A stretch of 64,000 nucleotides of DNA from Absidia repens (Eukaryota; Mucoromycota; Mucoromycetes; Mucorales; Cunninghamellaceae), in assembly GCA_002105175.1 (NCBI GenBank), contig MCGE01000005.1, positions 992,001 to 1,056,000 of the forward strand, read 5' to 3'. This document shows positions 1-61,583 of the stretch, piece after piece. Numbering within the stretch: the first letter of the stretch is position 1; every line of letters starts with the position of its first letter. A program made the translations under genes and the position numbers. The notes below the pieces were generated by a model, which was not told the DNA's origin, did not search any database, and saw only the letters and a list, made by a program, of their open reading frames with translations.

Positions 1-544
1 AATATTCCCCCCCTCAAAAAAAGAGCTATTGGGTGTCATGTAAAGTGAGAGGGAGGGGAGAAGCTGTTGAAGCGTGGGTTTTGCTGAAATTAGATACTCC
101 CTGCCATTTTTCACCTTGGTGAGCAATCAAAAGACTCAGCTTAAAGACTTCATTTCTTGGTTTTTATTATGCCATACGCAGCAAAAAATAAACAAACTGG
201 ATATATAGAGTATGTTAAGTCTAAATAGAGGTTACGCTAGTGGTGCGACCAAGATTTCCAAATATGAGTGACAGAGCAGGCACAAGACTGCATTTCATAT
301 TAATTGACTTTGAGAACTGTCAATTTTTCGATAGATCCCAGTCCGTGAGTCAAATAGCCATAGATAAGGTAGAAAGTAGTGAAAAATGTTATGGTGAGGG
401 CTACACACATAAATCAAACTAGATTTATTATACGATTGGTCGAGCAGGAATGTGCTTATCTTTGATAGTGCGCGAACTAAACTACCACTAGTTCCTGGAT
501 CTTTAGGGTTAAAGCAGTCATAATACTTGAACTAGAAAGTAAAT

Positions 545-1515
545 GTATAATGGATTACTCAAAAACAGCTATAGTAGCAATATTTCTTTCTATTTGATGG
601 GTCAAAATATGAGTAATAAAAAGGACATATTTATTGAAGTATATTGGTGGATACTAAAACTAAAGACGAGGGTTCATTGTAGCAAGGGCTTTAATAAAAG
701 GATCTATTGGAGGAAGCATGAGGGAAATGAATTGAGATTTGAAGAATGATCACCACTAATCTAGAGGGACAATTGTAAAGCGGGAGCTAATATTTGCATA
801 ACGCAATGCACGGAAAAGACTAACGGGACCTAGTCGACAGCTGTTATTGAAGCACAACCCTGGTTAATCAAAAGGAGCGATGGTAGGAAAAACAATGATC
901 TATTGCACAAGACATAAGTGAAACTAAAGGATCATTTTTCATTGAAGCAAGTAAAGAGAGACACATTTTATTCAACTATAGATACAATTATGTACAAACT
1001 AGCAAAAAACTTAGCTAATGGAGGCTCCAAAAAGCCAACTAAAGGTGGTCCAAAATCCTAGATCCAAAATGAAAGGGTTTCCCCATGCATCTTGTAATCC
1101 CTGAGCTGAAAATGCTTCTAAACTAGTCCTGACACTAATCTAAGTCTAAAATAATCCCATAGAAGTTGAATGGTGAAGAAAAAAAAAATGAAAAGAAAGA
1201 GAGAGAAAAAAAAAAAAATTGGGCGTAAATAAAAAAGGGCCTCATAAAAATTCACGTGTGCGGTATTTGAATTATTTTTTTTTCACAGCGAATAACACCA
1301 CACAAATACGATATCGTCAACATAATGATTCTCTTCTCATGACCTTAACCTTCACCATTCAATATTTCCCACATGGTTGTTCTATTATACATACCCAATA
1401 CGATTCAACGCTGGTAACATGTTGTTTTTTTCTCCTGATGCCTTTGCAGGAAAGACGGAGCAGCTTGGCTTCGTTTAATGTATCATCCGTCACTGTAGAA
1501 CAGTTTCTCACATGT
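545..1515 (-). repeat. Dispersed 1.1-kb element, copy A
   Basis: Non-coding copy of the repeat family that also occurs near 18.2, 27.7, 32.1 and 60.5 kb. Read on the minus strand it shows, in order, an upstream module, CACGTG at about 1253-1258, a pyrimidine-rich tract, the conserved core (1055-1103, containing GGGATTACAAGATGCATGGG), a small hairpin (1023-1036) and a TGAATAAAAT end near 966-976. A downstream module then ends in a second AATAAA-like box near 630. No ORF is conserved between copies, so I read it as a non-autonomous mobile element or a transcribed non-coding unit. Both ends are approximate. Confidence 0.75.
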
Positions 1516-1621: not shown

Positions 1622-1725
1622 ATCGCCTTATCTTTAGATATGTATAGTATTATCATTAGATTAATATAATTTAATTGGCGTAGTTTGTATATACATCTGA
1701 ATAAAATATGTCTTGGCTTTGCTTT
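1622..1725 (+). repeat. Partial 3'-end-like fragment of the dispersed element
   Basis: A plus-strand segment resembling the element's 3' end: CTTATCTTTAG, then AGTTTGT, then ACATCTGAATAAAATATGTC. It faces away from copy A and may be that copy's opposite terminal arm, by analogy with the clear inverted arms of the copy at 60.5 kb. The match is weak outside the last 30 bases. Confidence 0.4.
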
Positions 1726-2655: not shown

Positions 2656-5600
2656 ATGGGCCAACAGTAGGTACGTATAATGAATTAGTTGAAATATACT
2701 ACTACTACCTAACTACTTTATAAAACTCACCGTTCTTTAATCAACTAGGGATCACGATACGAAAAATACTGCCAAGTCTGCCAATATTACTGTCAAGGTA
2801 AACACTCAATCATCAAAAGGTTTATCTAACGCTGGTAATTAACACAACTCTTATTTGTTAAAGGGGTGGTATCCTGAGCCTAGTTGCAGTAGGCTTCCGA
2901 CCTTATTTATATGGTTGCTATTGGAAATTGAATGGTAAGCTACTTATGAAAAATGTAGGCTATTTTTATCATTGGCCAAAAATAAAAATTACAAATTCCT
3001 TGCATGCACGCATTTTTCTAAAAACACCATTCTCTTCCTTCTCTCAAATGTATTTGAATAGTGCTGCATCACCCTGTTCTGATCCTGCATTTAGGCAAGC
3101 GCAAAATGTTCAAGACGGCCATCGCTCTCTGCCTTCGATTCCTGAAGATTTGGTGCAACCTTTACGTGATGCCTTGCCGAAAATAGATGAAGCATTATTG
3201 TCCAGTGTACCTGCGGAAGCGCTTCCCTTGTGTCAGCAATTGTTTAGTACATGGTTATCAACAAGTGCATCCGTTGCTGGTATTCCACCTCCTCCAAGAG
3301 CTCAAACAACAATGAATATCGCATCTCTGTGTCAACTACCATCACCTATTCTATCAAAAAAACAACAATGTCATCATCAGCAGCAAGGAAAGACCTATAG
3401 GGATCAGGACCATGGTCAACGGCAACTCCGAAAGCAGTTTGTCGAAACATCAGTATCACTCAATACCAAACTTACTTCACCAAAACAATGCCGGAAAAGT
3501 CAATCAACAAGCCGTCTCTCATCATGGTTTTCTTGGTCGCTTCCAAAGAGAAAAAATGCTTCTGTGGCTCCTATGGTCGCTCGTCCAAAAACATCCGCCT
3601 ACCAGAATATTTCCGATGCGTCACCTGTCAATGCAACGACAACTCCATTTCAGGCAAAATCGTCAACTTCTACTATGTCAGCCAGCATAACACCTCGCCT
3701 AGATTTGTCTCAACCTCAACCTCACGATTCGTATATTATACAAAAACAGCTACCTCAAACGCCTTCGCAGTCTCAGAAATCGACGCGGCCCCCACCACCG
3801 CTACCTCAACGATCGCAATCGCAATCACATCAGGCTCACAAATCTTATCAGCAAATCCATCACCTCAGTCAATCATCTTGCCTCCCTACTAATCAGTCTA
3901 TCCATCAACAAAGTACGCGGCAATCGAATCACTCATTCGGTTTATCACCATCCTTATCGTCTTCCTCATCCACAACAACATCGACATCAGCAACATTTTT
4001 ATCAAGAACGAACGATGGTGGCTCAGGTAGTTATAGACGAAGTGTCTCATTTATGCTGTCCAAATTTGGCACCAAGGTACGAAAAGTGATCCACAGTAAA
4101 AGCCAACGTATTTATCCTCAATCCAAACCCACCAACGCTACTTCCAAGATGCCCTTCACTAGCCTATCTCAAATCAATCTACCTGAACTACATAACCTTC
4201 CACCATCAGCACTATCAACATCTCAGAAGCGCTCTCTGCAAAACATACCTGCGACCATTAGTTCTCCTTCAATGTCAAGCTCCAGTAAACTGAAAACAAG
4301 TGTCTCTGTGGGTACAATGATCTACAACAATACGATTGCGATGGAAAAGAAATCGGATGGTGCTCCTATCTCACCCAAAAACGGCAATGGCTCTGTGCAA
4401 GTCAACAACAACGAATCTGATAGCATCCACCTCTCGTTATTACTCGATCACCAAACTCACCTTCAACAGCAGCAAAGTCCGTCAGTCAACAGTTGGAAAG
4501 AAGTAACGTACGACCTAGGGCAATCATCACCAGCAATAAACCAGCAACAAACAACAACAACGCCTATCACCACCACATCGACTCAACTAATCATGCAACA
4601 ACCTCTATCACCGACAGTACCACGAGGATGTCTTTTGTCCCACAACGATTACAGTGACTACAGCGAATACGACAGTGCAAATGACACAGAGGATGATGAC
4701 GACGATCAACATCGAAATATTAGCCTTGCCGGCAACACAACATCGACCGAGGAATACAGAAGCCGCACGCATGACGATGGAAACGAAGATAGTGATCCCA
4801 CCAACTTGAAAACGCCGTGGAGCCCACCTGAATCTCTGGTAAGACGCACTCTACGGTCAAGCAAAACGGATACAAACATGAAGCATAAAGTATCGGTGCC
4901 ATTTATCAAAATGGGACTTGGAAGGAAAAGTGTGGATGTCGATGACCAAGCGCAATACACCACTCGCTCCATCTCTTCTACATCATTTACTTTACAATGG
5001 CAAGAAAAATTCCATGACCAGCAACAGCCTCGCGAACGTATTGCTAGCACTTTGAAAAGGTAAAAAAAAAAAAAATGGATGGTGGTGGTTGCGAAATCTG
5101 GGCATTTGATCAACGAAACCTTTTTTTTTTTTTTTGTGCAGTGTCTCTTTGGCCCTCTATGACATTGTGCGACATAACCATGCATATCAGCAATTCACCT
5201 CAGACACTGCCTATGTTGCTCATCCTGATTTGAATCCCGGAGAAGATACAAGGGAGCTTTTTTCAACTGTCCCCATGACTCACTGGCGGGATATTTTTGA
5301 CCAAATTGCATATATATTTGAAAATGGCGTTGTAAGTATATGTAATCCCTCCTTTTCCCTACTCCAATGACACCAAATATTCATTAACTCATTTTTTTTA
5401 TCCACTCTTCAATATCTAGCTAACTGCTGAACACGCCATCATTACCGTGATATATATTGAACGTATGTTGGAAAACTCAAAGCAGCATCTCTGTGAAGCG
5501 AATTGGCGACTGATTGTCTTGGCTGGCTTGATTACTTCTGTCAAAGTATGGGACGATTGTGCTGTTCACAATATGGATTTTCTTCAAATCTTCCCAGAAT

Positions 5601-15687: not shown

Positions 15688-17004
15688 ATGCTGCTTCTAT
15701 GCATCTTGTGGTTGACCTTATTACTATTTGTCTCATCAATTCAAACCCAGCTAGCATTAAACTCGGAACAAACCAGTGGATTATGTGATTGCGGTTATCG
15801 TGATGATCAAAATGCCTGGACAGATGGATGGTTCATGGATTTTGAAAACAACATGAGCGTGAACTCTAATAGTGCAAGGAAAACCAACAGCAGCGCCGAC
15901 ATGTCCCTCTCTTCACCAACATTATTATCACTCCTTCAGCAAGACTTTTTTATGGCGAATTATGAAATTGCAGCAAAATATGAAAATACTTACAGCAGAC
16001 TCTTCAGCAATGAAAATGTCAAAATCGACAACAATGCGCTTCAACTCCATGTAACTGTGAACAACTCCACTTCTACGCAACAACAACAGTCTGTCATGTG
16101 CGGGGCCATTGGAACAAAGCGGCAAGATATCTTATACGGATCCTTCCGAAGCCAGATGCGACTGTCTAATGTCAATGGAACTGTGCAAGCCATGTATTTT
16201 TTTAATCCCGATGGTGAAATTGATATTGAAGTACTTGGCGCAGTGGCTCCTCCTCAGTCCTACTTTGCTATTCACCCCGGTCTTCAAGAACCCAATGGTC
16301 GTGCCTCTGCATTGACCCATGACAATCATCCCTTGGGTTTTGATCCTTCTTCCGACTTCCATGAATATCGTTTCGATTGGTATCCAAACCGGGCTGATTT
16401 TTATATTGACGGTCAATTGGCTCAATCACTCTCAACAAATATCCCTCAAAAGCCTGGCCGATTCATGTTTAGTCATTGGACCGATGGAAATACGAAATTC
16501 AGCAAAGGCCCCCCTACCACCAACGCCATCATGGAAATCAAGTCGATTGTGGCTGTTTTCAACACCTCTGTGCTTGACGCCACGAATCAATCCTCTTCAA
16601 GTACCGATGGCTCCTGTCAGAAATCTCAAACTTCCTGCGCCATTCCCGGTAAGAATAATACCAAAAAAAAAAAAAAAAAAAAAAAAAAAAAGCAAAAAAA
16701 AAAAAACCGGGGACGAAAGGGCAGAGGGGAAGAGTGGCGCGGGGTTAAAGATGAAGACTAACTTTTTTTTCTTCTTTTTGCGGCGGTTATTTTTCCGAAT
16801 GACGATGACTTAGGAATTAAAAATGATGAGCCATCATCATCCTCATCATCCCCGCCATCTCAATCTTCTCAAGAAACTGAACCGTCACCCACCAACCAAG
16901 TTGAATCATCCCCAGTGAAGTCTTCTTCTATCAAAAGCATCCCACTGAAGCTTTATCTTGTGGCGTCTCTGGTAATGACTGGTTGTGCTATCATTTTAGT
17001 ATAA
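15688..17004 (+). CDS. GH16 family cell-wall glycosidase/transglycosylase
   Basis: Secreted, probably membrane- or GPI-anchored glycoside hydrolase family 16 enzyme acting on wall beta-glucan or chitin-glucan links. There is an N-terminal signal peptide (MLLLCILWLTLLLFVSS), a beta-jelly-roll domain and the catalytic signature DGEIDIEVLG with the two Glu of E-x-D-x-E at about residues 175-184. Further on are EYRFDWYPNRADFYIDG and the HWTDGN strand. Two exons (15688-16648, 16814-17004) give 383 residues. The second adds a Ser/Pro/Glu-rich linker and a C-terminal hydrophobic segment (YLVASLVMTGCAIILV). Such an ending fits a GPI signal or a tail anchor. Many NxS/T sites support passage through the ER. 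The intron starts with a 29-base A-tract. Confidence 0.9.
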
Positions 17005-19084
17005 ATCTTGCTAGCGATAGTTTATTATTAGACGTAGCTTGATTATTTTGTACATACAATTTATTGAATAGTTTGCATTATCACTCACACACTCTCTCTC
17101 TTTATATATACATATATATATATATATATAACTAATAAAAATACTATTGCTTTTTTTGTAATATGGAATCACTGATCTTTGTTATCACTGGGTATAAAAG
17201 AGAACGGGGAGTTTACTGGGTGAAATTTAACCATTTATCACAATTTGTTACTATTTTTGCAATTTAATATAGCTATGTAATGTGAAAGTTGCCTACCATA
17301 TTTATAATACGGACACCGCAGAAATGATACTCATCATGTACGTGTGGGTTAGTAAATTTTTAACAATATCAAAAAAGAACTACATGCAAATCATATGAAT
17401 TCTGATGACAGTCAAATTAAATAACCCTATTTGATCGCCTGTCGAAGCAGCCAACAATCCTCAGTAACCATCACAAACAACATCTCTCAATTTCTGTTTT
17501 TTAATCAAGTGATTTTAATGTCTGATTCGCTAATAACAGAGACATTTGAAAATCCCCTCTATTTTAAAGGCTATCTACTAAGTGCTAGGTTTTAATCATA
17601 TAATTCAATAAATATAACGTAAGGAAAAGTACGAGGGTAAGCAATGCTACGGTCAGAGACACGCTATTCAACAGTGGACGAGAGGGCAGAGGCGGGGGAG
17701 GGGAACTATTCTGTGTCCTACGTGTGTTGCAAACTATTCTAAATAGTAGAGGAGTGTTTAAGGCATTGTGACAGTTGCACCACCATCATACCACCGGTGC
17801 TATATAGTGGTTTAAAAACAGGGTGCCGATGTAGATGGTGCTTGTTACTGTAATAAAAAAGAAGTTAATCACCATGCTACTGCTATTGAGCGGTATAGGT
17901 TGCTGGAAGAATAGTAGAACACCTCATGCCGTCGATTGCCGCCCAAGGCAAAATAGATCCAATGTTAAATGGTGGAGGATTTTCTGTCAATAAACTATCA
18001 TGTTGACTATGTTTCGTGGTATCGAATGATGTGGAAAAATAGTAAAAAGGGGGCCCCTTTTTTGTATGCACCAATAAAAAAGGACATGGAGCAACCACAG
18101 AGAAGGTATTCAGACCCCGTTCACGTGAATATTTATTAACTCCTACTTTTTTATTTTTCGGCTTTCTTTCTTTCCATTTCTTTTTTTTTTTTTTTCTTTT
18201 TCTTTTTCTTCACCATTCAACTTCTATGGGGTTATGTCAAACTTAGAATAGTGTCAGGACTAATTTAGAAGGGGTTTCATCTCAGGGATTACAAGATGCA
18301 TGGGGAAACCCTTTCATTTTGGATCTAGGATCTGGAATCTCCATCAAATGACTTTTTGGAGCCTCCATTAATTTAGTTTAGTGTTAGTTTATCATATATT
18401 TTGTGTCAACATCTGAATAAAATACGTCTTTCTTTAATTACTGCAATGAAAATGTTCGTTTGTTTGTCTCATATCTTGCACAAGAGATTCCTTTTTTTTT
18501 ATATCCCTATTGGTTAATGTTGACATTTTTATACTTCAAATAAATGATATATCCCTTTAGACATTCCCATGCTTTGTACAAATATTAATTCCCTTTTTAC
18601 AATCCCCCCTTTAGATTAGTGCTACCCATTCTCCAAATCTCCCGTTAGCCTCCCTCATGTTAGCATCATTAGACCCTTTGACTGCCGTTGACTTTCGCAG
18701 GTTATGCTTCAATAAAAAATATCCTACCTTTTTTTTTTTTTTTTAACTATATCCAAATATACATATATCGGCAAAAAATTAAACGACAATAACAATTGAT
18801 TGCAAAAGCAAATGAGTGATAAAAATAAAAAATGGTTTTTATTCAAAAAAAAAAAAAGTGGTAGTGTATGTCATACTAACTTCTATAGCTATAAAATGGG
18901 AATAAAGTCCTTTTCAGTGGTCATGAGAAAGACTATTTGGGACAGTTCCATTTGGGTATATTGAATCCATAGATAAAACTGGATTTTATTTCACAACATG
19001 CATATTTATGTTTGCTATAAGATTCCAACTAAACTACTAAACTATAACCTATACATGCTAAACTACAATCAGTTCAAAAATCCA
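17005..19084. other. Long intergenic gap between GH16 and PB1 genes
   Basis: Convergent gap of about 2.1 kb. It begins with TA/TATA microsatellites near 17105-17130 (3' flank of the GH16 gene) and is otherwise mostly element copy B. I see no coding sequence. Confidence 0.6.
17700..18780 (+). repeat. Dispersed 1.1-kb element, copy B
   Basis: Plus-strand copy. TTCACGTGAA lies at about 18120-18129, a long pyrimidine tract follows at 18150-18215, the conserved core is at 18283-18331, the hairpin at 18350-18363 and TGAATAAAAT near 18414-18423. A downstream module has CTTTAGATTAGTGCT near 18611 and an AATAAAAAATAT end near 18712. Here the hairpin carries one mismatch (GACT against AGCC). Confidence 0.75.
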
Positions 19085-26177: not shown

Positions 26178-28802
26178 ATAGATTTATCCTCTCCTTAGAA
26201 TCCAACAATCCTCCCCCCTAGTTTTTATTTTTATTTTTCTTCCCATTCTCTTAGTATTACTTGTATCAAATTATCGCTACTCTCTTCAAAAAATCACTGA
26301 TCATTTCCATATATGCATGAATAAACTACATTTTATATTTTACGTTGATATTTATTTCCGTTTGATAGTTTTGAAGTGGTGGGTTTTGATTTGGAAAAAC
26401 GCATGGAGTAAGACTTGGGACACTCTCAAATCCCACCAAATAAATAAAATAAAGATGTTTTGCTGGAGGATGTATTGATTTCATGAATAAATGACCAACC
26501 CAAAATTATACAGAGTATACTATGAAATGTCTGTTATTGAGCCACCTTTTCCCATTTCATTTCATAGCTCTATGTCTCCTATTCTTTTTTTTTCTTTTTC
26601 TTTTTTTTTTTTTTTTTTTTTGTGCGTGTGTGTGTGTCAGTGGCTGGATGTTTCCCGTAGACTAAATTTTATTTGTGTCATCTTAAAGTGGTGTGGTAAG
26701 GAGAAATTCTTCTCTGCCTGAGAGTATATGAGGGCAAGTCATATTGGACACGCATCATACTATTCAAGCATTCATTCAAAGTATATAAGGTATTTTTATA
26801 TTGTTAGAATTAACATAAAGCTAGGTAGACTATTCTGCAGTGAAGGGCAGATACGATACAGTATTCTATTCTACAGCGGAGGAGAGGGGGGGGGGAATAT
26901 CAAACTAGGTCAACCCAACTGTATTGAGCGGAAAGGAGACATGAGAAGAGAAACAACATACTGTCTGTCCCGAATAATGGGTGTCGGTGCCATGAGAAGA
27001 GAAAACTATCATGCTATCACTGGGGTGTGCTATAATTTACTATATTCTTTTCTCTTTGATTATCATATCAAATCGCCTGTATTCTAATGCCCCTTTGTCT
27101 AATATCATCTCTTGATTTCAATATATTCATTTTTATTCTACCAATATCCACTTGTTGTCTTCTATTCACATCATCTTTAATTAATATATCATGTATACCT
27201 TAATTTATTTTTAAATCAAATAAATAATTATACAAACTAATATATGAAATTGTCTAAGCACTAATTCAACCGCTGTCATTCATCTATTGTGTTCAAGTGT
27301 GCCTTTGCTAATCAAGTAATTCAAACCCAGTCCTCAACTCCTCCACGTATACCTTTTTTCCCTATGTCGTTCTATTATACAGTACCTTAATATCGTTATT
27401 CTAATTTGTGTAGCCATACTATATTAATCTATACAGCAGCCGTCCGGAACCTTCTTTTGTTTTTTTTCGTGTTATCTCACCTAAATGAAGTCACCTAAAT
27501 GAAGAAAGTTATCAAGGGAATGATCACAACTTCAGTTCAGAGACATTATCGAAAATATTTTAAATCCCGCACACGTGAATATTTATTTGATTTTTTTTTT
27601 TTTTTTCGCGCTCTTTCTTTTCTTTTTTCTTCACAATTGTTGTCTCCAGGAATTATATTGGACTTGGATTAGTGTTAGGACTGGTTTAGAAGGGTTTTCA
27701 GTTCAGGGATTACAACATGCATGGGGAAACTCTTTCATTTTGGATTCAAGATTTGGTACCACCATTAGTTGGCTATTTGAAGCCTTGATTAGCTTAGTTT
27801 AGCGTTAGTTTGTCATTGTTTGAATCTATATCTGAATAAAAAATGTCGCTTAACTCTCTTCAATAAAAAATATATCACTATTTCTCTCATGTCTTGTACT
27901 GTACAATGATTGTCTTTTTGCCATCGCCCTTTTATATTATTATTGGCAGCTGCTATGCCACAATAGAAGGTACCTCTTTAGTCATTCTCATGCTTTGTAC
28001 TGTACTATACAATATATGCGATCCCTTTTTGAAATTTTACCTTTAGATTAGTGCTGATCAGTATTTAGAATATATAATAGTCTCACCCACGCTATCTGCA
28101 GTAGATCCTCAGTTATAATGAACCTCGCTGTCTTGGTTTATACCTTTTATTTCAAATAAATTAGATTCTTCTATTACCTCCCCCCCCCTCCGTCTGACCC
28201 ATTATATTAGAACTTAAAAAGTTATTGCGACTATTTTATGAGTGTCCTATCTAACCCTAGCTTTCTAGTTCACCCACTAGAGGCTACTTCATCCCTCCAA
28301 ATCCCGGCAGTCGGTTTGCCAGTTTAGGCCACTTTGTATGAACCGCGGATCTATTCCAGCTCTACGATTCATATTAATTAACCTAGACCATATAGTCAGC
28401 GTATCCTTTATAAAATAGTATATCTTCCACTAGACTTGACATGCGGTATACATCGAACGGTTCCCTCCAATAACAATAATAACAACAACAACAGCAACAA
28501 CAACAACAACAAAAATAAAATAAAAAAAAGATGGGTCATGAATCGAACATTGTAATCAAAAATGAAATGTTGTGACATATATATTGCGAAAATATTAAAG
28601 ATTGGTTTTTATTGATGAATTGTATTGTCTAGTGTAGAAATGATAAAAAAAAAATGCGGAAGCAAAGGTAGAGGGGAAATAAAACATGAATGATGGTAAA
28701 TAAAGGAATGGATGAGGGAATATAAACTATATAAACAACAAAAGGGGGTAAAGATTATAACTACTTGTGCCGAGTAAAACTAGAAAAATGGAAAAGACTA
28801 AT
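26178..28802. other. Long convergent intergenic gap
   Basis: Between NOP12 (+) and the PKA regulatory subunit (-). It holds 3' flanks, a long T-tract followed by a TG microsatellite near 26600-26637, element copy C, and a CAA/AAC trinucleotide run near 28470-28510. No coding sequence is supported. Confidence 0.6.
26840..28440 (+). repeat. Dispersed element, copy C (longest)
   Basis: Plus-strand copy with the GCACACGTGAAT box at about 27568-27579, a T/C tract, the core at 27714-27762 (one change in the GAAA-capped stem turns a G-C pair into G-U), the hairpin at 27771-27784 and TGAATAAAAAATG near 27830-27843. The downstream module continues through CTTTAGATTAGTGCT to a CTTTCTAGTTCACCC segment near 28260-28275. 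That segment also occurs near 61.1 kb, so this copy retains more of the 3' flank than the others. Confidence 0.75.
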
Positions 28803-31434: not shown

Positions 31435-33000
31435 GCACACAGATCATCCCCCCCTTTTTTTTATTTATTTCTTCGACACTCACAAGCACGATACATTACA
31501 GAGCCGTGTGGATACAGATATTCGACAGCAGAAACAAAATCTATGAAGGTCGATGTAGAAGCGAAATTTATTCAGATATAAATAAACCATGACAACTGAA
31601 CTATTACTATGATATCTATTTGAAGTAAAGACAATTAGGACTCCGTGTGAACGAGCGTGAGGTGTGTGCGATGAGGAGGGAGCGTTTTTTATATCAGAAT
31701 AAACATAACGTCAGATAAGCCAATCCAACCAAAGAGGGTTAATTATCCTACGGTGAGCGTCAAACTATTCTACAGGGAAGTAGTTAACTAAACTAGTCTG
31801 AATAACTCCATCTTGTCTGCAACGGAATTAAAATACAAAAGAAACAACCATTCTGACAAACGTCGAATAGCGGTAGTTATTATCATGAGAAGGAAGCTTC
31901 ATGTTGATACTGCTGTATGGTGTTGATTGTCGTAAAAAAAAAGCGGGGTATCCATTTTTGTATCCACCACCAAAAAAATCGCTCAACACCATTTTCAACC
32001 CCCGGCCACGTGAAGCTATTTTTTTTTGCGCTCTCTTTCTTTTCTTCTTTCTTTTTCTTTCTTTAATCCTTCACAATTGTGACCTTTACGGGGTAATGAT
32101 GGACTAAGATCAGTGTCAGGTCTAGTATAGAAGGGTTTCAGCTCAGGGATTACAAGATGCATGGGGAAACCCTTTCATTTTGGATTCAGGATTTAGGATT
32201 ATCATTATATGACTTTTTAGAGTCTTCATTAGCTTAGTTTGGTGGTAGTTTGCCCATAGTTTGTACCTATACTTGAATAAAATATGTCTCTTTTTACTTG
32301 CTTCAATGAAAACTGTCTCGGTAGTCATTCTCTTGTCATGTGCTATAGATTACTATTTTATTACCAGCACTCCTTTTGATTAGTGTTGAGTGTTGTTGTG
32401 ATTCAGTATCTGATGTCCACTTGGCTTTTGCCATGGCTTGTATAGTACACCAGCAGCCGTTTATAATTTTATAACTGCCTCTTTAGATTAGAGTTGACCA
32501 TTTTTCAAATATCACTTTAGTCTTCCAATAAATCCGTTGTTACCGTGAACACGTTTCCTTTAATTTTATTATCTATCACTATGATTCAGTAATCTATGCC
32601 TTTTAATTGACTATACTCTGACATATTTGATAATATAAAATGCCGCTATTGTAGTAGTTCCCCACCAAACACTTGTTTCTAATTTAAATAAATCCAGATT
32701 GTGTTGTGGATGTGGCCGTCGCTATAGAAGGGTTTTCCGATTGGGTTCTAGCTTTTGCAACAATAGACCTTTACATTTTTCCTGAACTGCACCATATTCA
32801 TCTTTTGTGTCACCCTTTTTCGATTTTTGAAAATTTGGTCATAGAATGAGACTCAATAAAGCTCAATATACCAGATATGCATATAAAATTCAAGACAATT
32901 TTTTTTAATAAATTAATAATAAAATAGTTGATAAGCTTTATTCAAGTAAAAATAATAATATAATACTATTGTAACTAAATTAATATAAAAAGTCGCACCA
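30262..33000. other. Long intergenic gap upstream of PKA-R
   Basis: Between the start of the PKA-R gene and the 3' end of the ABC transporter gene (both -). It holds AT-rich DNA, a 30-base T-tract near 31402-31432 and element copy D. ORFs here show no protein-like composition. Confidence 0.6.
31559..32720 (+). repeat. Dispersed 1.1-kb element, copy D
   Basis: Plus-strand copy with GCCACGTGAAG at about 32008-32018, a C/T tract, the core at 32144-32192, the hairpin at 32211-32224 (arms GACT and AGTC) and TGAATAAAATATG near 32273-32285. A segment near 31562-31580 (TTTATTCAGAT) is the reverse complement of the 3' end, again suggesting an inverted terminal arm. Confidence 0.75.
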
Positions 33001-33789
33001 CTATCGCTTTTGCTTTCGGAATAGCCAGACAAAGAAGACGAATGCAAATATGTTGAAGATCCAGAAAGCTAAAAGAATACCCCAATCACGCCATCTACAA
33101 TATTTTTTCAGTAATATCGGTCAGTATTAATTTCATCAATCAAAAAAAAGGGGGGGGAAGTAACTTGCTTACCTATTGCTAAAGCTCCATCCAATACGTG
33201 CGTAATACTGTTCACCCTTGCTGTACAGACAGTAGCTGCACATATCAGTACTGCCTAGAGTATCTTGAGTGATATAGCCTGTGCCACTGGGAGAAGCGAA
33301 GAATTCCTGCGTATATTGCTGACAAGTTTGTCCAGGAGGTGGGCGAAAATTCAGGATATCAGACTCCGTACATGTCACTGTGAGATCGTACAATTCGTTG
33401 ACCATAAAGCCTTCAATCAAATAATGGTAAGGATCGAGCCAGTACATCCAGGACGACCAAAAGTGTGGCATATCCGATGGAGGTTGAATAATACCAGCAA
33501 AGAGGATGAGAATGGAAGAGAAGAAAGGGTTGATCACAGCTGCCATTGTAGCAGTTGTTGAAAATGAGGCAATCAAGAATCCAAACGAAACAGAAAATCC
33601 CAAAAAGACCAAAAACAAGATAAAGAAATACCCAATACGATCGGATCCTTGTTGTAAACCAGCTGTCCAGTAGAAGCAGAACATAAACAATGCTGTAAAG
33701 ATAATAATGTACGGTACTTCAACCAAAACGGTACCAATAGCTAGATATAAAGGTTAAATTGATAAGCATGTAATCAATCTCTTTTTCAT

Positions 33790-33831
<42 letters not shown>

Positions 33832-36800
33832 GTAACCTACCGAAGGGAGCCCAGCCATAATAACGGGAAGCATATTCACGCCTAAACCACTGTCTTTCTT
33901 CCATAAATCGAGGCTGACCGAGCACAATCAAACTATTTGCCATCATTAATGTTGTAAAGATACAGAATAGACGGTTGTTCATATCTACCACCGAGGTCCC
34001 CAATTTCCAGAAGGAGAATCCAGATATCAAAGCAATAAACGCCACTTTAAATAGACGCCCAACATTGTAAGACGGACAACGCCACCAAGATACGTTGAGT
34101 CGCTGATAGACGTACCATAGCTGCGAGAAAAAGCCGAGAGAATATGTGGAAGGATGTCGTTTCAGGTTGGGATCCACCGTGGAATGGATTTCTTCGAGTT
34201 CATTATGGAGGTCCTTTGATTCTTGGGAGTTTGCCCACACATCGCCCCAGTCTTGCAGCGCGTGCCCTGATGTACCCGCACCTACCACCTCCAAGATATA
34301 TTCTGCCGGATTTGCACTGGGAGAGCATTTTTGTCCGCCATGAGATTCGAAATAATTGATCATGGTTCTGGAATCTTCACCAATAGGTCCATAATAAGCA
34401 GTCCGTCCACCACGAACTAATAGGAGCAAGTGATCGAAATAGCTGAATAAGGTTGCAGAAGGTTGATGAATTGTACACAAGACAGGCCATCCCACATCAG
34501 CAAGCTTTCGGATAAAGCGGACAATGTTGTAAGAAGATTGGGCATCCAGACCAGAAGTAGGTTCATCCAAAAATAGTAGTTGGGGCTTGGCAACCAATTC
34601 TACACCGATAGTCAACCGCTTACGCTCTTCCACAGAGATACCCTTCATGCCTTGAGGATCACCGATCAATGAATTGCCAATTGGTTCCATTTCCAAAAGA
34701 TTCAAAATTTGTTCCACATAATCGTCTTTTTCCTTTTTCGACACATCAGCAGGTTGACGAAGATAGGCAGAGAATTGCAATGCTTCACGCACCGTGGCAT
34801 TGGGATTGTGAATATCCATTTGTTCGCAATAACCGGTAACACGTTCAAAATCGCTATGTAAAACTTCCCCATTCATGTACATACGTCCATCCACCTTGCC
34901 AATGGTTTTTCGCATCGCCAAAACATCTAAAAGAGTGGTTTTACCAGCACCTGAGGAGCCCATCAATGCAGTGAGGTGACCAGGCTTGACAATTCCGCCA
35001 ATATCGTTCAAAAGCTGCCTTGAGCCACCTTTCACGGGAACAGTGTAGTCGATGTGTTGCCAAACAAATACGGTACCGTTGTCGATAGCTTCCAGTTTTC
35101 TGCCGCTCGATTTTTGAGCACGTTCACGCAATTGTTCTTCCGTTTCTTCAGTTGGGGCACAGTTCCGTTTGTAGACCTTGATTTGTGAGCCACCTTTTTG
35201 AAGTTCGACGTATTCCATACACAAGGCAGTAACAACCGTAAACAGACAAAAGAATAAAAAGACTGCCACAAAATTGATCCAGCGCTGCCATGTAGCATAC
35301 CCGTAAGTCACCGCTAAATAATCATCTCCCAAAACAAATGTAGCACCGGGAGCCGCACCATGAATTGAGCAACTTCGATAAGCAGGATCGCTGTATATAG
35401 GACCACTTGGAACATGATCAGTAGCACCCATACAGGAGTAATGCTGACCGTGCATTTCGTTTTCCAGAATTGCTTTGTAAGCGTATGCCAATGGGTTGAT
35501 CCAATAAATCCACATAAGCCAAGGATGCATTTGAGTATAGGGAATTTGATAGCCAGAATAAATCATAAGAGCGATCAACACACAGGATGACAATTGACTT
35601 GCAATGAAGAAGTTCGGTGACAGACTTCCAAACATTCTGAAGAATCCATTCATACAAAGATTACTGAAGATCAGAACCAGCATAAAAGTAAAATACTATA
35701 GAAGTAGCAGGGGAGAGGGAAAAAAAAAAGAGAGGAGGGTTAGATTTAGGCACTAAAATAATACACATTCATTTCATTTCAGTCTTACCTGACCAGCTGT
35801 CAAAGTCAGAGCAGCAATAAAATATACACACAATTGGAATATGATGACTTGAATAATGGCCAAAGGAACATCCGCCACCACCTGAGCAATGTAAAAGTAC
35901 ATAGGACGATATAAAGCATATCCCTTGTGCTTTTCCAAAACACGGCGTCCATGCATAAATGTAGACAGTTCAGATTGAGCAATCAGAGAGTTGAAGAGTA
36001 AAGAGAAGAACAAGAGACCACCACGGGAGAAGGTACCACTGGCACTTGTGGGCATATTGTAAAACACCGAAGCCATGATAAGTCCCTTGACAATAACGCC
36101 GCCATAACGTGAGATTAGAGCACCCTTATCACCTATTGATAAAATAAAATGTACACGTTAGTTAGTATAAACGAACATTCCTTATCACTTGTGTTTTTAT
36201 TTCTTACCAAGAATAAGTTGGAATTGTCGAATGGTCAGAGCCTTAATTTGAGATATAGGGGTAGCAGTGAATGGAGATCGCTTGCTTGCATGTTTTTGAT
36301 GGGCTTCCGCAAAAGCTTGACGGAAATCTTCATCGGGGTGTTCCCGTTCCACTTCGGCATCATAGTCTGACATTTCCTTCTGAGTATCTTGCCAAGTAGT
36401 AGAATTCTTGTATCTTTCTTCAAATTCAAGTGGAGTCATAGGAATCTTGTTTTCAAAACCAGGGCGAGCTTCTCTTTCCATAAAGTTGCATAGACCAGTC
36501 AAAAAGTCAGGAGTTGATTTCCGAGAAGGACAATGGAAGCCCATATCTTCAAAGTAAGTCTTGGCTTGACTAGCAGGACCAAAATAGAGACAATGTCCAC
36601 CATCTAACACCATGCAGTGATCAAAGAGTTGGAAGATAGAATCAGAAGCTTGATACAGAGTAGCCACAGTCGTTTTTTGTAGAATATCAGTTTGCACACG
36701 TAAAGAGCGGACATAATCCAAAGCTGATGAAGCGTCCAGACCACGAGTAGAGCAATCCCAGCAATTGATACAGGAACCAGTTGTCATTTGTTCAGCAATT

Positions 36801-37356
36801 GTCAAACGCTTTCGTTCACCACCAGAGAGCCCACGCACAAATTCATTCCCAACCATGGTGTCCATTTGCTTTGTCAATCCCAGCATGTTGCCCAATACGT
36901 ATATAATCTTGTCTTGGAATTTGTTCTTGGTATCCCCAGGGAGACGCTTTCCAGGAGTCTTGCAACGAATAGCAAAGCGTAGCGTTTGTGCAGCGGTAAG
37001 AGTGGGATAGTTGATGTCTTCTTCTTCATTGTAGCACACTTCACCCCGATAGAGTTTGCCGAATTCTTTGGAATCAATACCACCATACTTGACTTCCCCA
37101 GTAATTTCAGTAAATCCTTGTCGCATTTCAGCCAAGACTCGTAGCAATGTTGTACAGCCTGCGCCCGGCCGCCCTAGAACCAAAAGCATTTCACCTGGTT
37201 TACAGTATCCACTGACGTCGTTGAGGATTGTTTTGTCGTGACCTGATTTACGTCCCCATCTCCAGAAACACAATGCAGATTCAAACACCGTGGAAATAGT
37301 TGGAATCCATTCATGATCGGCGCCAACGCCCTTTTATGTGTAAAGAAGATAACAAC

Positions 37357-53877: not shown

Positions 53878-53940
<63 letters not shown>

Positions 53941-58704: not shown

Positions 58705-59949
58705 TTAACTTCCCTCCCCTTATTTTTATATTTTATTAGTATAATCCATAATAAAGAAAACTTTTATCGAACTTATAGTCTTGTCCCCGTTTGTTTTGTT
58801 TTGTTTTGTTTTTTGTTGTTTTCGACTATTGTTTTATTGGTCACATCTCCCTATACTTTATGCCTTACATCAAGGCATCTACTCATACTGAAATAGCTTT
58901 TGTTTTACCATAATATTATAACACACTGTAGATATGCATTCTGGTTGTGCGGGCCCTCTAGATGCGACTCTCATCGCTCAGGTTATCGTCGCTCAAAAGA
59001 CCGATGGCAAATAGAGTGACTCAGAGTCATTTGAAAAGGGCTTGATTACATTATGAAGTTACAGAAATTATTATGGTATCCATCCACTACCGCTATTTTT
59101 TTATTTTTTTTATTTTTTTGAAATAAAAGTAATTTTATTTTTATCATACATTTGCTTTTGCCTTGTTTGTCACTGTTGCCTTCATTTTTGTTTATATATA
59201 TATGTGTGTATTTGACATAGTTGAAAAAAAAACAAAAAAAAAAACTCACATTTAAGACACCTGGGATACAGCAGGTCCTCACATTGGAAATCATTTGGAT
59301 TTTCTCAAAATGCATTCTCTAGGGCGAAAAGTTAGTTTTGATCGGGGTATGAATATATGCTATTCTTATGATAACATATGGCAGACTAGTAGGCGGTTTA
59401 AACCGCATTAGCTCTAACGACAATCATTATTCCTTTTAACGCAGTATGAATCACTCTTAAATACATTATTAAATGGTGAAAAATAAAATGGTAAAAGCGA
59501 AGAGTCCATTAGAGTTGTCATGATATTGATTCAGTGCTGTATTGCAAAACATTTTAAGAAATCTTCATGTTTATCCTTCCAATGAAACACTGCTGGCAAG
59601 ACCTAGAGGTTAATGAGAAAAGAAATCAATGAAATCAGTGGATAAATTTTTAGGACATCAGTATAAGAGTATCATATAGTAGAATAATAGGCCATATTTA
59701 TCTCATACCTACCATATTTAGAAATAACCTGTGCGAATTAAATGTTTCCCTGGTTTGACCGACACAGGAAGATACTGCATCCACCGATATCTAATGGGAA
59801 TTTCCTGTTAATATGTACCGCGAATATAAATAAAAATTGATGGTCTAAATGAAGATGCTAGAAAGAATATACGTAGTAGGTAGACTAGGGAGGGAAAAGC
59901 CAAAAAAAAAAGATATGTGAACGAAAAGCAGGTGCTCGATAAGGCATTT

Positions 59950-60930
59950 ACAAAAGATCAACAATAACGACATTTCTCATTTTTTTTATAGGTCATAGCA
60001 TGGTTAATTAAATAATAAAAAGAAATATTTTATTGAAATATATTGATAGGCACTAAACTAAAGATAAGAGGCTCCTTGTCACAAGAGATCTAAGGGAAGG
60101 AACTACGGGAGGTAGTATGCGGGAGACTAGCTGGGAGACTAATGAGCTAATGGGAGTTCAGAGAATGGTCAGCTCGATTCTAAAGACGCCAGCATAAAAA
60201 GACTTCTAATATACTACACTAGGTGTAATAAAGACCTGAGGAATATTTGTTATTGAAGCACAACACGATCTATACTGATGAAAAAGGGTGATGGTAGTTA
60301 AAAAAAAGGATCTATTGTACAGGACATGAGAGATACTTACGGGACATTTTTTGTCAAGGCATGTAAAAAACAAACAAAAACAAACGTATTTTATTGAGAT
60401 GTTGATACAAACTGTGACACATTAACACTAAACTAAGCTAATGAAGACTCCAAAAAGTCAACTAATGGTGGTTGTATATCCTAGATCCAAAATGAAAGGG
60501 TTTCCCCATGCATATTGTAATCCCTGTGCCGAAAACCCTTCTAAACTAGTACTGACACTAATCTAAACTCAACATAACCCCAAAAAGGCTACATTGATGG
60601 GGAAAAAAAAAGAAACAGAGAAGAAAAAGAAAAGAAAGAGGCTGAAAAAATAAAATATAAAATTCACGTGTGCGGGATTTGATTTGTTTCTTTTTTTTTT
60701 CGGTGGTAGTGTAGATTTCGTAGATGCAAGCAGTAGAAGCACTTCCTTTATTTTATTTTTTTTGCAACACTCAACACCATGTAACATCATTAATATGGTA
60801 GTTCTATTTTCATGAAACCAGCAACCACCATTCGACACTGGCAACATGGCTATTCTCTTCTCTTGAAACAAGATGGTGCAGTCCGACCTACTGGAGTTAA
60901 CCCATTCACCACATAATTATTTGCCACTTA
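59950..60930 (-). repeat. Dispersed 1.1-kb element, copy E
   Basis: Minus-strand copy. GCACACGTGAAT lies at about 60663-60674, the core at 60478-60526, the hairpin at 60446-60459 (arms GACT and AGTC) and CTCAATAAAATACG near 60385-60400. The downstream module runs left to an AATAAAATATTTC end near 60020-60033. It shares its whole order with copy A, including GTTATTGAAGCACAAC near 60249. Confidence 0.8.
59962..60082 (+). repeat. Left inverted arm of copy E
   Basis: About 120 bp whose reverse complement recurs at 60931-61050 with roughly 85-90 percent identity by eye. Shared blocks include AATAACGACATTTCTCA, TATAGGTCATA, GGTTAATTAA and ATTGATAGGCACTAAACTAA. Together the arms bracket copy E (span about 1.09 kb), as expected for a MITE-like element. 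Confidence 0.8.
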
Positions 60931-61050
60931 GTGACAAGGAACCTCTTGTCTTTAGTTTAGTGCCTATCAATATACTTTAATAAAATATTTCCTTATATTA
61001 ATTAATTAACCATCTTATGACCTATAAAATAGTGAGAAATGTCGTTATTG
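60931..61050 (-). repeat. Right inverted arm of copy E
   Basis: Inverted partner of 59962-60082. The plus strand beyond it (to about 61300) matches the far 3' flank of copy C (GTTCTAGTTCACCC, then CCTTATAAAATA). The arm may therefore be the end of a second, truncated copy facing the other way rather than a true terminal repeat. Confidence 0.75.
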
Positions 61051-61583
61051 TATATTTTTGTGGGTGTCTTATAAGTACCTGCGTTCTAGTTCACCCACCC
61101 TGTCCACTTTTGATCGCCCCCCCCCCGCCCCTTAAAGCCCAGACAACCGGTTGGTAGTCCCAACTCATTTAGTATGAAATGTAGACGTATTGTTTCTCAA
61201 CCAACCAATACTAATGAACCTTGGTCATGTCATCAGTGCAATCTTCCTTATAAAATATAGTAGTCTTCACTTGTCTATATTCAATGTTTTCTGGATTTTT
61301 ATTCTTACCCTAAGATTGTTCTTCATCGGAATATTCAGTGCGAGGATCTACTGTAATATTTTGATAAAGTGCCACAATATTGTAGTACTTCCTGTCCGCA
61401 TCATGAGCGACCGAGGATTAATATAGTAAAAGTTATTATGACCCACTTTCATATCATACTCATCCCCATCCCCATAAGATACCCTTCATCACATCAAAAA
61501 TCAATTATAAACGATAAAGTAATGTTAATAAATTTTATTTAAATATATATATATATATCATAAGCTAAACTATATCTATGTAT

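Follow-up and report, generated by a model that had tools for sequence, protein, structure and literature searches.

The window, that is, the whole stretch of 64,000 nt that was analysed (C45:992001-1056000), belongs to the Absidia repens assembly, which consists of 47,368,516 bases (47.4 Mb) in 79 contigs and was the genome searched in this study. Ten long frames of the window were scanned, and the domains detected, among them PDR-type ABC transporter, GH16 and Rpb2, are eukaryotic, with PDR_CDR pointing to a fungus. Two adjacent same-strand ABC-transporter frames of the PDR type (33722-37333) are probably one gene, and the 739-aa frame at 19088-21304 matches BCR42DRAFT_407693 of A. repens and has a 77% relative in Absidia cylindrospora. 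Long runs of A or of T on either strand occur at many places across the window (53882-53940, 33792-33829, 16663-16706 and others). The window also holds five copies of a repeated unit, designated e1 to e5 (L-numbers denote copies or stretches elsewhere in the genome), each with a pan-core, the 23-nt core shared with diverged relatives. The mapped features are as follows:

219-378, recurring tail part of e1 (profile HMM, E=7e-5)
381..1286, minus strand, main unit of e1 (profile HMM, E=1e-212)
1065..1087, minus strand, pan-core of e1, 0 mismatches
1654..1714, plus strand, upstream module of e1, an inverted AATAAA 3' end (profile columns 311-372, E=2.4e-6)
18046..18748, plus strand, main unit of e2 (profile HMM, E=4e-160)
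18122..18127, plus strand, CACGTG box of e2
18299..18321, plus strand, pan-core of e2, 0 mismatches
18416..18421, plus strand, AATAAA of e2
27506..28428, plus strand, main unit of e3 (profile HMM, E=3e-183)
27720..27742, plus strand, pan-core of e3, 1 mismatch
31949..32789, plus strand, main unit of e4 (profile HMM, E=1e-177)
32160..32182, plus strand, pan-core of e4, 0 mismatches
59883..60740, minus strand, main unit of e5 from CACGTG to tail (profile HMM, E=3e-208)
60390..60395, minus strand, AATAAA 3' of the core of e5
60488..60510, minus strand, pan-core of e5 (23 nt), 0 mismatches
60665..60670, minus strand, CACGTG box of e5
60930..61262, plus strand, inverted second arm of e5, tail part only (profile HMM, E=8e-51)

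The five copies are real, as supported by pairwise blastn (69.6-77.7% identity over 292-593 nt), by alignment and by a profile HMM, which they match over 703-923 nt. The alignment also confirms the part order proposed by the sequence-only reading, namely CACGTG, pyrimidine tract, core, hairpin-like stretch, AATAAA and tail, as common to all five. Read in the direction from CACGTG to core, an A-rich upstream stretch is followed by TTTCAAATCCCGC(A/C)CACGTGAAT and TTTTTATTTAC, after which come the pyrimidine tract ending in TTCTTCACCATTC, then TTAGATTAGTGTCAGGACTAGTTTAGAAGGG and the core CAGGGATTACAAGATGCATGGGGAAACCCTTTCATTTTGGAT. On the 3' side of the core lie the hairpin-like GGCTTTTTGGAGCC, then AATAAAATATGTCT and a tail of about 350-400 nt, which contains further AATAAA-like boxes and apparent degenerate internal repeats, part of it being tandemly repeated in e1 and L011. 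Similarity between copies fades past about 760 nt after CACGTG, and the ends are fuzzy, not sharp. Near position 2371 of L010 and 2732 of L031, a downstream sequence common to the two copies, seen by eye, replaces the usual tail end and may be another repeat.

The genome search returns thousands of copies and not five loosely similar stretches, in agreement with the earlier proposal of an abundant non-coding family. Counted genome-wide at up to 3 mismatches with the reversed pattern as control, the core 30-mer occurs at 3,230 sites (1,587 forward and 1,643 reverse; 563 exact genome-wide) and the 23-nt pan-core at 4,734 sites (2,346 and 2,388 on the two strands), while each reversed control gives 0. 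Pan-core density is about 1 per 10 kb, and the strands are used equally. At equal tolerance, a 30-mer of the block preceding the core has 2,201 genome matches, one of the CACGTG box 968 and one of the tail 289, the last figure being too low, and the contrast between core and tail exaggerated, because a common tail variant differs from the pattern at two bases. Exact matches to the core pattern were absent from viral contigs and prokaryote genome contigs. These data fit an ancient family, dispersed through A. repens in about 4,700 non-coding units that measure up to about 1 kb each and may together account for up to a tenth of the genome.

Twenty stretches of 10 kb from eight contigs, taken at round positions and chosen blind to matches though not randomised, make up 264 kb together with the window, and the profile built from the five window copies gave 19 matches in 14 of these 20 stretches. 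A set of 15 copies, five from the window and ten from the stretches, was compiled by leaving out 9 of the 24 first-profile matches as partial or strongly diverged. In all, 47 copies were aligned, with hairpin pairing counted over 43 and target-site duplications scanned over 33.

AATAAA is present within 160 nt 3' of the core at 20 of 21 sites, where 22% of random windows would be expected to hold it, and it lies 92-95 nt after the core at 12 of the 21. An exact CACGTG stands upstream of the core at 13 of 21 sites and is missing at the other 8; the distance from CACGTG to core is 159 +/- 12 nt over the 15 sites with a recognisable box. All 12 CACGTG-containing box matches in the 264 kb fall inside elements, so a promoter box common to host genes was rejected, and three looser matches without CACGTG lie outside elements. 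In contrast to the shared upstream module that had been described, the upstream parts differ between copies and are of at least two kinds. The first kind occurs in e1, e4, e5, L022 and others, and can end in an inverted AATAAA end (e1 and L021 by profile, L022 by eye), so that some units resemble two diverging arms around one CACGTG centre; the second (L004, L008) recurs at 29 of 39 other loci scored.

Some loci, e5 and a pair on C45 among them, carry inverted arms. At e5, 59917-60082 and 60931-61094 form an inverted repeat of 85% identity; the sequence-only reading, which had taken 59962-61050 for one simple copy, overlooked the inverted arm at 60930-61262 (+) that makes the arrangement head-to-head. 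The C45 pair, also head-to-head, consists of C45:468491-469182 and 470998-471686 (L002 and L004), the two arms of which are 96.5% identical over 692 nt. The 1.6 kb between them (C45:469307-470917) has pieces at 39 other loci scored among 69 candidates; most of these are 66-83% identical, and they have an edge in common near query position 1148. This stretch is either a further module belonging to the family or a repeat of its own. A long-TIR transposon as the general form, suggested by these two sets of arms, was rejected, as few of the scanned flanks held an inverted profile match: 6 of 43 on the upstream side and 4 of 45 on the downstream side, many flanks being short.

Conservation along the unit is uneven. 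Over the 15 copies, mean pairwise identity is 0.914 in the core (44 nt), 0.838 in the block before it, 0.80 in the AATAAA region, 0.746 in the CACGTG box, 0.567 in the pyrimidine tract and 0.52-0.66 in the tail segments. The core, previously described as 49 nearly invariant nucleotides, is strongly conserved but not invariant, its 44 nt being on average 91% identical between two copies. The flanks have diverged and the core has not, as had been noticed, with the tail 27.6% and the pan-core 2.3% from the consensus and p-distances of 0.41 in the tail (identity about 59%) and 0.086 in the core, although the tail divergence may be overstated through misalignment. The consensus is matched at 0.85 of sites at the CACGTG box versus 0.60 in the tract after it, and at 0.91 in the AATAAA region versus 0.83 beside it, which is a modest rise.

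Retention of these parts exceeds what the tail would predict. The pan-core is present within 3 mismatches in 21 of the 23 core-reaching profile matches (one of which reaches it partly), where the tail rate predicts 8.7% per copy. For AATAAA (20/21) and CACGTG (13/21), binomial tests that assume independent decay from a single consensus give P of about 4e-9 and 3e-5 at the tail decay rate, and 1.5e-7 and 1e-3 if the slower decay seen in the first tail segment is used instead. Among eleven diverged or relic matches aligned, one is cut before the core, six keep the 23 nt with up to 3 mismatches in very different flanks (L015:23, L023:9116, L024, L026:5916, L035:6144 and L036), and four have lost the core (L003:2728, L017:1646, L031:1651 and L018:5999, the last being a core-less relic added by a second profile).

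Closest relatives were sought for four copies, with the best 40 of 3,207-3,812 candidates scored for each. Among these, the top dispersed relative is 78% identical for e5 (over at least 300 nt), 82% over 336 nt for e2, 82% over 356 nt for L022 and 81% over 363 nt for e4; for e5, two shorter matches score higher, its own second arm (89% across 131 nt) and a piece of 102 nt (81%). Judged by these best dispersed relatives of 78-82%, the copies are old. The sequence-only reading had left the core as either constrained or recently homogenised; the former is favoured because conservation rises at several separate places and because the four tested copies have no close dispersed relative among the best 40 candidates, while homogenisation is disfavoured. 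The simplest reading, drawn within one genome, would be selection acting on many single copies.

The hairpin that had been listed as a structural part is not upheld. Compensating A-T/G-C changes, first seen by eye, proved on counting to be no commoner than with shuffled partners (43 copies), and covariation is absent. RNAalifold predicts an invariant core stem around GGG-GAAA-CCC. Its energy is better than that of column shuffles (z from -2.3 to -9.7 on this strand, from -3.3 to -4.9 on the opposite one), with a covariation term close to nil; the core base pairs, being nearly invariant, are uninformative on covariation. A long conserved core lacking covariation suggests that a protein recognises its sequence, either in DNA or in single-stranded RNA. 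Rfam gave no match at the gathering threshold in the window, the sub-threshold ones in e2 and e5 being unrelated and at chance level; a Pol III-type SINE head (tRNA, 5S or 7SL) was likewise without an Rfam match in the window, where a diverged head could escape, and A and B boxes were judged by eye.

In a small fungal Pol II gene, CACGTG can serve as an activator site, pyrimidines mark the start, and a short RNA ends at a poly(A) signal with a T-rich stretch behind it. The unit is shown to match this layout and to be conserved; transcription, a role at the RNA level and selection on each copy are inferred. The favoured reading, to which we give a probability a little short of even (roughly 0.48), is that of an ancient dispersed family, the copies of which may be individually constrained and work as putative compact Pol II-type transcription units. 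CACGTG and the pyrimidine tract would form the promoter, a non-coding RNA of roughly 190-250 nt would bear the core as its functional motif, and AATAAA would terminate the RNA. The family would probably have spread long ago as a mobile or duplicating element and been retained afterwards.

A core of 23-44 nt would fit a DNA-binding complex equally well, and the first alternative is a cis-acting DNA element. Here a chromatin, terminator, insulator or replication-origin complex would bind the core as a long site, present in nearly every long gap between genes, and CACGTG and AATAAA would be secondary. Core length suits a multi-protein DNA site, there is no RNA covariation, and the cores are spaced at about one per 10 kb, equally on both strands. 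They are also almost confined to long gaps. With coding called in the 264 kb by a simple and crude hexamer score, for which 34 long frames served as the training set, and with gaps cut by stretch ends included, a core is held by 19 of 26 gaps of at least 2 kb (10 of 16 at 2-3 kb and 9 of 10 at 3 kb or more) and by 1 of 193 shorter gaps (Fisher P about 1e-20), although this association is partly automatic because the 1-kb element itself lengthens its gap. The rule that every gap above 2 kb, and no shorter one, holds one copy thus holds approximately, as five such gaps in the window have a core but two (2.2 and 2.4 kb) are empty. The 38 profile matches share at most 30 nt with any called coding stretch. 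Of the 76 sides of these matches, 57 could be classed by the gene end that faces them and 19 could not; 38 of the 57 face a 3' end (P=0.016), a count which rests on crude gene calls and includes similarity-chosen copies and pieces of one copy. An impression from the window that the tail always faces gene 3' ends was dropped, as in this larger set both ends of the unit do so mildly. The upstream inverted AATAAA-type end of e1, L021 and L022 is also what a two-way terminator might show. On the other side, the 3'-end bias could merely mean avoidance of promoters, and AATAAA on the core strand at 20 of 21 sites, together with a box at a fairly fixed distance, fits a directed transcription unit better. 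A DNA-level role of the core has to be taken seriously, though on the whole it is rather improbable.

A transposable element with neutral copies, in which core, box and AATAAA are conserved solely through the needs of active source lineages, appears unlikely. It would explain why copies descended from one ancestor are dispersed, why there are partial inverted arms and duplicated tails, and why one inverted pair has recently been homogenised, as well as some subfamily signal in the tails, where distances in the two halves correlate (r=0.43) and one tail variant recurs many times. Mucorales are described as carrying many transposons (PMC4133162, PMC7928374). Against neutral copies, cores about 5% from the consensus predict tail siblings about 10% apart, but the best relatives of the four tested copies, among the best 40 candidates, are 18-22% apart, and a master-lineage transposon would require very many separate active sources. 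Target-site duplication was not seen, as the flank at any one pair of offsets was repeated in 3 of 33 copies at most; such duplications could be hidden by decay, since the copies are old. Terminal inverted repeats flanking each copy, as in MITE/TIR elements, were not observed in the flanks scanned. The 1.6 kb between the C45 arms contains no open frame longer than 123 aa; the search for an autonomous partner covered this interval and ten long frames each of the window and of the 20 stretches. In those stretches no internal coding region flanked by two direct copies caught attention, and one of the ten frames, L036:3-2117, has reverse transcriptase and retroviral-type protease domains (Pfam) and lies 4.1 kb from a relic copy. 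No LTR or protein-coding transposon, a match that the sequence-only reading had named as refuting, was recognised, judged without a repeat library such as Repbase.

That the core was homogenised without selection, through gene conversion or because a recombination hotspot lies there, is very improbable. Conversion probably does occur, as the C45 pair is 96.5% identical over 692 nt versus about 75% elsewhere, is the only close pair among the 47 aligned copies (2% apart) and has ends that by eye are less alike; this pair reads as having been homogenised by recent local gene conversion. Conversion centred on the core predicts one smooth peak, however, whereas the observed profile falls and then shows further rises, one at the CACGTG box and a modest one at the AATAAA region, and over 44 copies the divergence of the core block does not track that of the tail (r=0.06 and 0.08). 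That the units are small protein genes is hardly credible, for although a 41-codon frame runs through the core of e5 on the strand opposite to AATAAA, there is no third-position or synonymous pattern (core substitutions by phase 34/18/30), single-base deletions occur beside the core, in keeping with the earlier statement that no coding frame is shared, and among about 5.8 billion proteins none of fitting length shares three 5-residue words with this frame.

The favoured reading, a family of putative transcription units, has partial counterparts among known repeats. Solo LTRs and TRIM elements have a promoter-like start, AATAAA, a length of about 1 kb and thousands of copies, and the Absidia units resemble them in all four respects. 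Unlike solo LTRs, they show no target-site duplication and no sharp ends, the missing duplication being weak evidence because the ends are fuzzy, and neutral LTRs would lose a 2%-diverged core beside 28%-diverged flanks. MITEs and foldback elements possess long inverted repeats, and e5 and the C45 pair have comparable head-to-head inverted arms, but inverted partners lie near few Absidia copies (6/43 and 4/45 flanks) and no target-site duplication was seen. The 41-bp centromere motif of Mucor and the 50-bp origin motif of Kluyveromyces lactis are long conserved non-coding fungal motifs of similar length, which are set apart, by their general description, by far fewer sites and the lack of a shared 1-kb unit. 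Absidia glauca has a repetitive element, Rag1, and the plasmid-stabilising SEG1, which may be of the same family.

Besides the V domain, CORE and Deu are conserved domains of SINEs. According to PMC6887750, SINEs with a V domain are high-copy non-autonomous dispersed repeats with one short, near-unchanging domain for which a cellular role has been proposed, and the Absidia family is like them in being a dispersed high-copy repeat with one such domain. It differs from conserved-domain SINEs in that it has no Pol III head recognised by Rfam, possesses a CACGTG box and a poly(A) signal, is fungal and is about 1 kb long. The SIDERs of Leishmania, as portrayed in PMC2689281, are large, old and degenerate families spread fairly uniformly through the genome and apparently domesticated, being retroposon remnants that act post-transcriptionally, with sense copies within 3' UTRs. 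The Absidia family is likewise large, old and fairly uniformly spread, but no retroposon relative was found for it and its layout suggests a separate transcription unit. It thus differs from conserved-domain SINEs and SIDERs in layout, fungal host and Pol II-like signals, and is perhaps a domesticated dispersed repeat with a conserved domain. No text describing such an element in Absidia or Mucorales was found in the literature searched, outside of which most subscription papers lie, and a 16-letter core string occurs in none of these texts.

That thousands of individually selected non-coding mini-genes of one kind, one in nearly every long gap, emit short RNAs with a shared motif of about 23 nt and constitute a genome-wide RNA or chromatin-organising system is a doubtful, tentatively held extension of the favoured reading; no account of such a system in a fungus was found. 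Should the cores be functional, one and the same motif would act at one locus per 10 kb, a density that might be expected of insulators or origins, and would be packaged like a transcription unit. The domestication of a whole repeat family would then become testable in a small fungal genome, where the flanks provide a built-in yardstick of decay.
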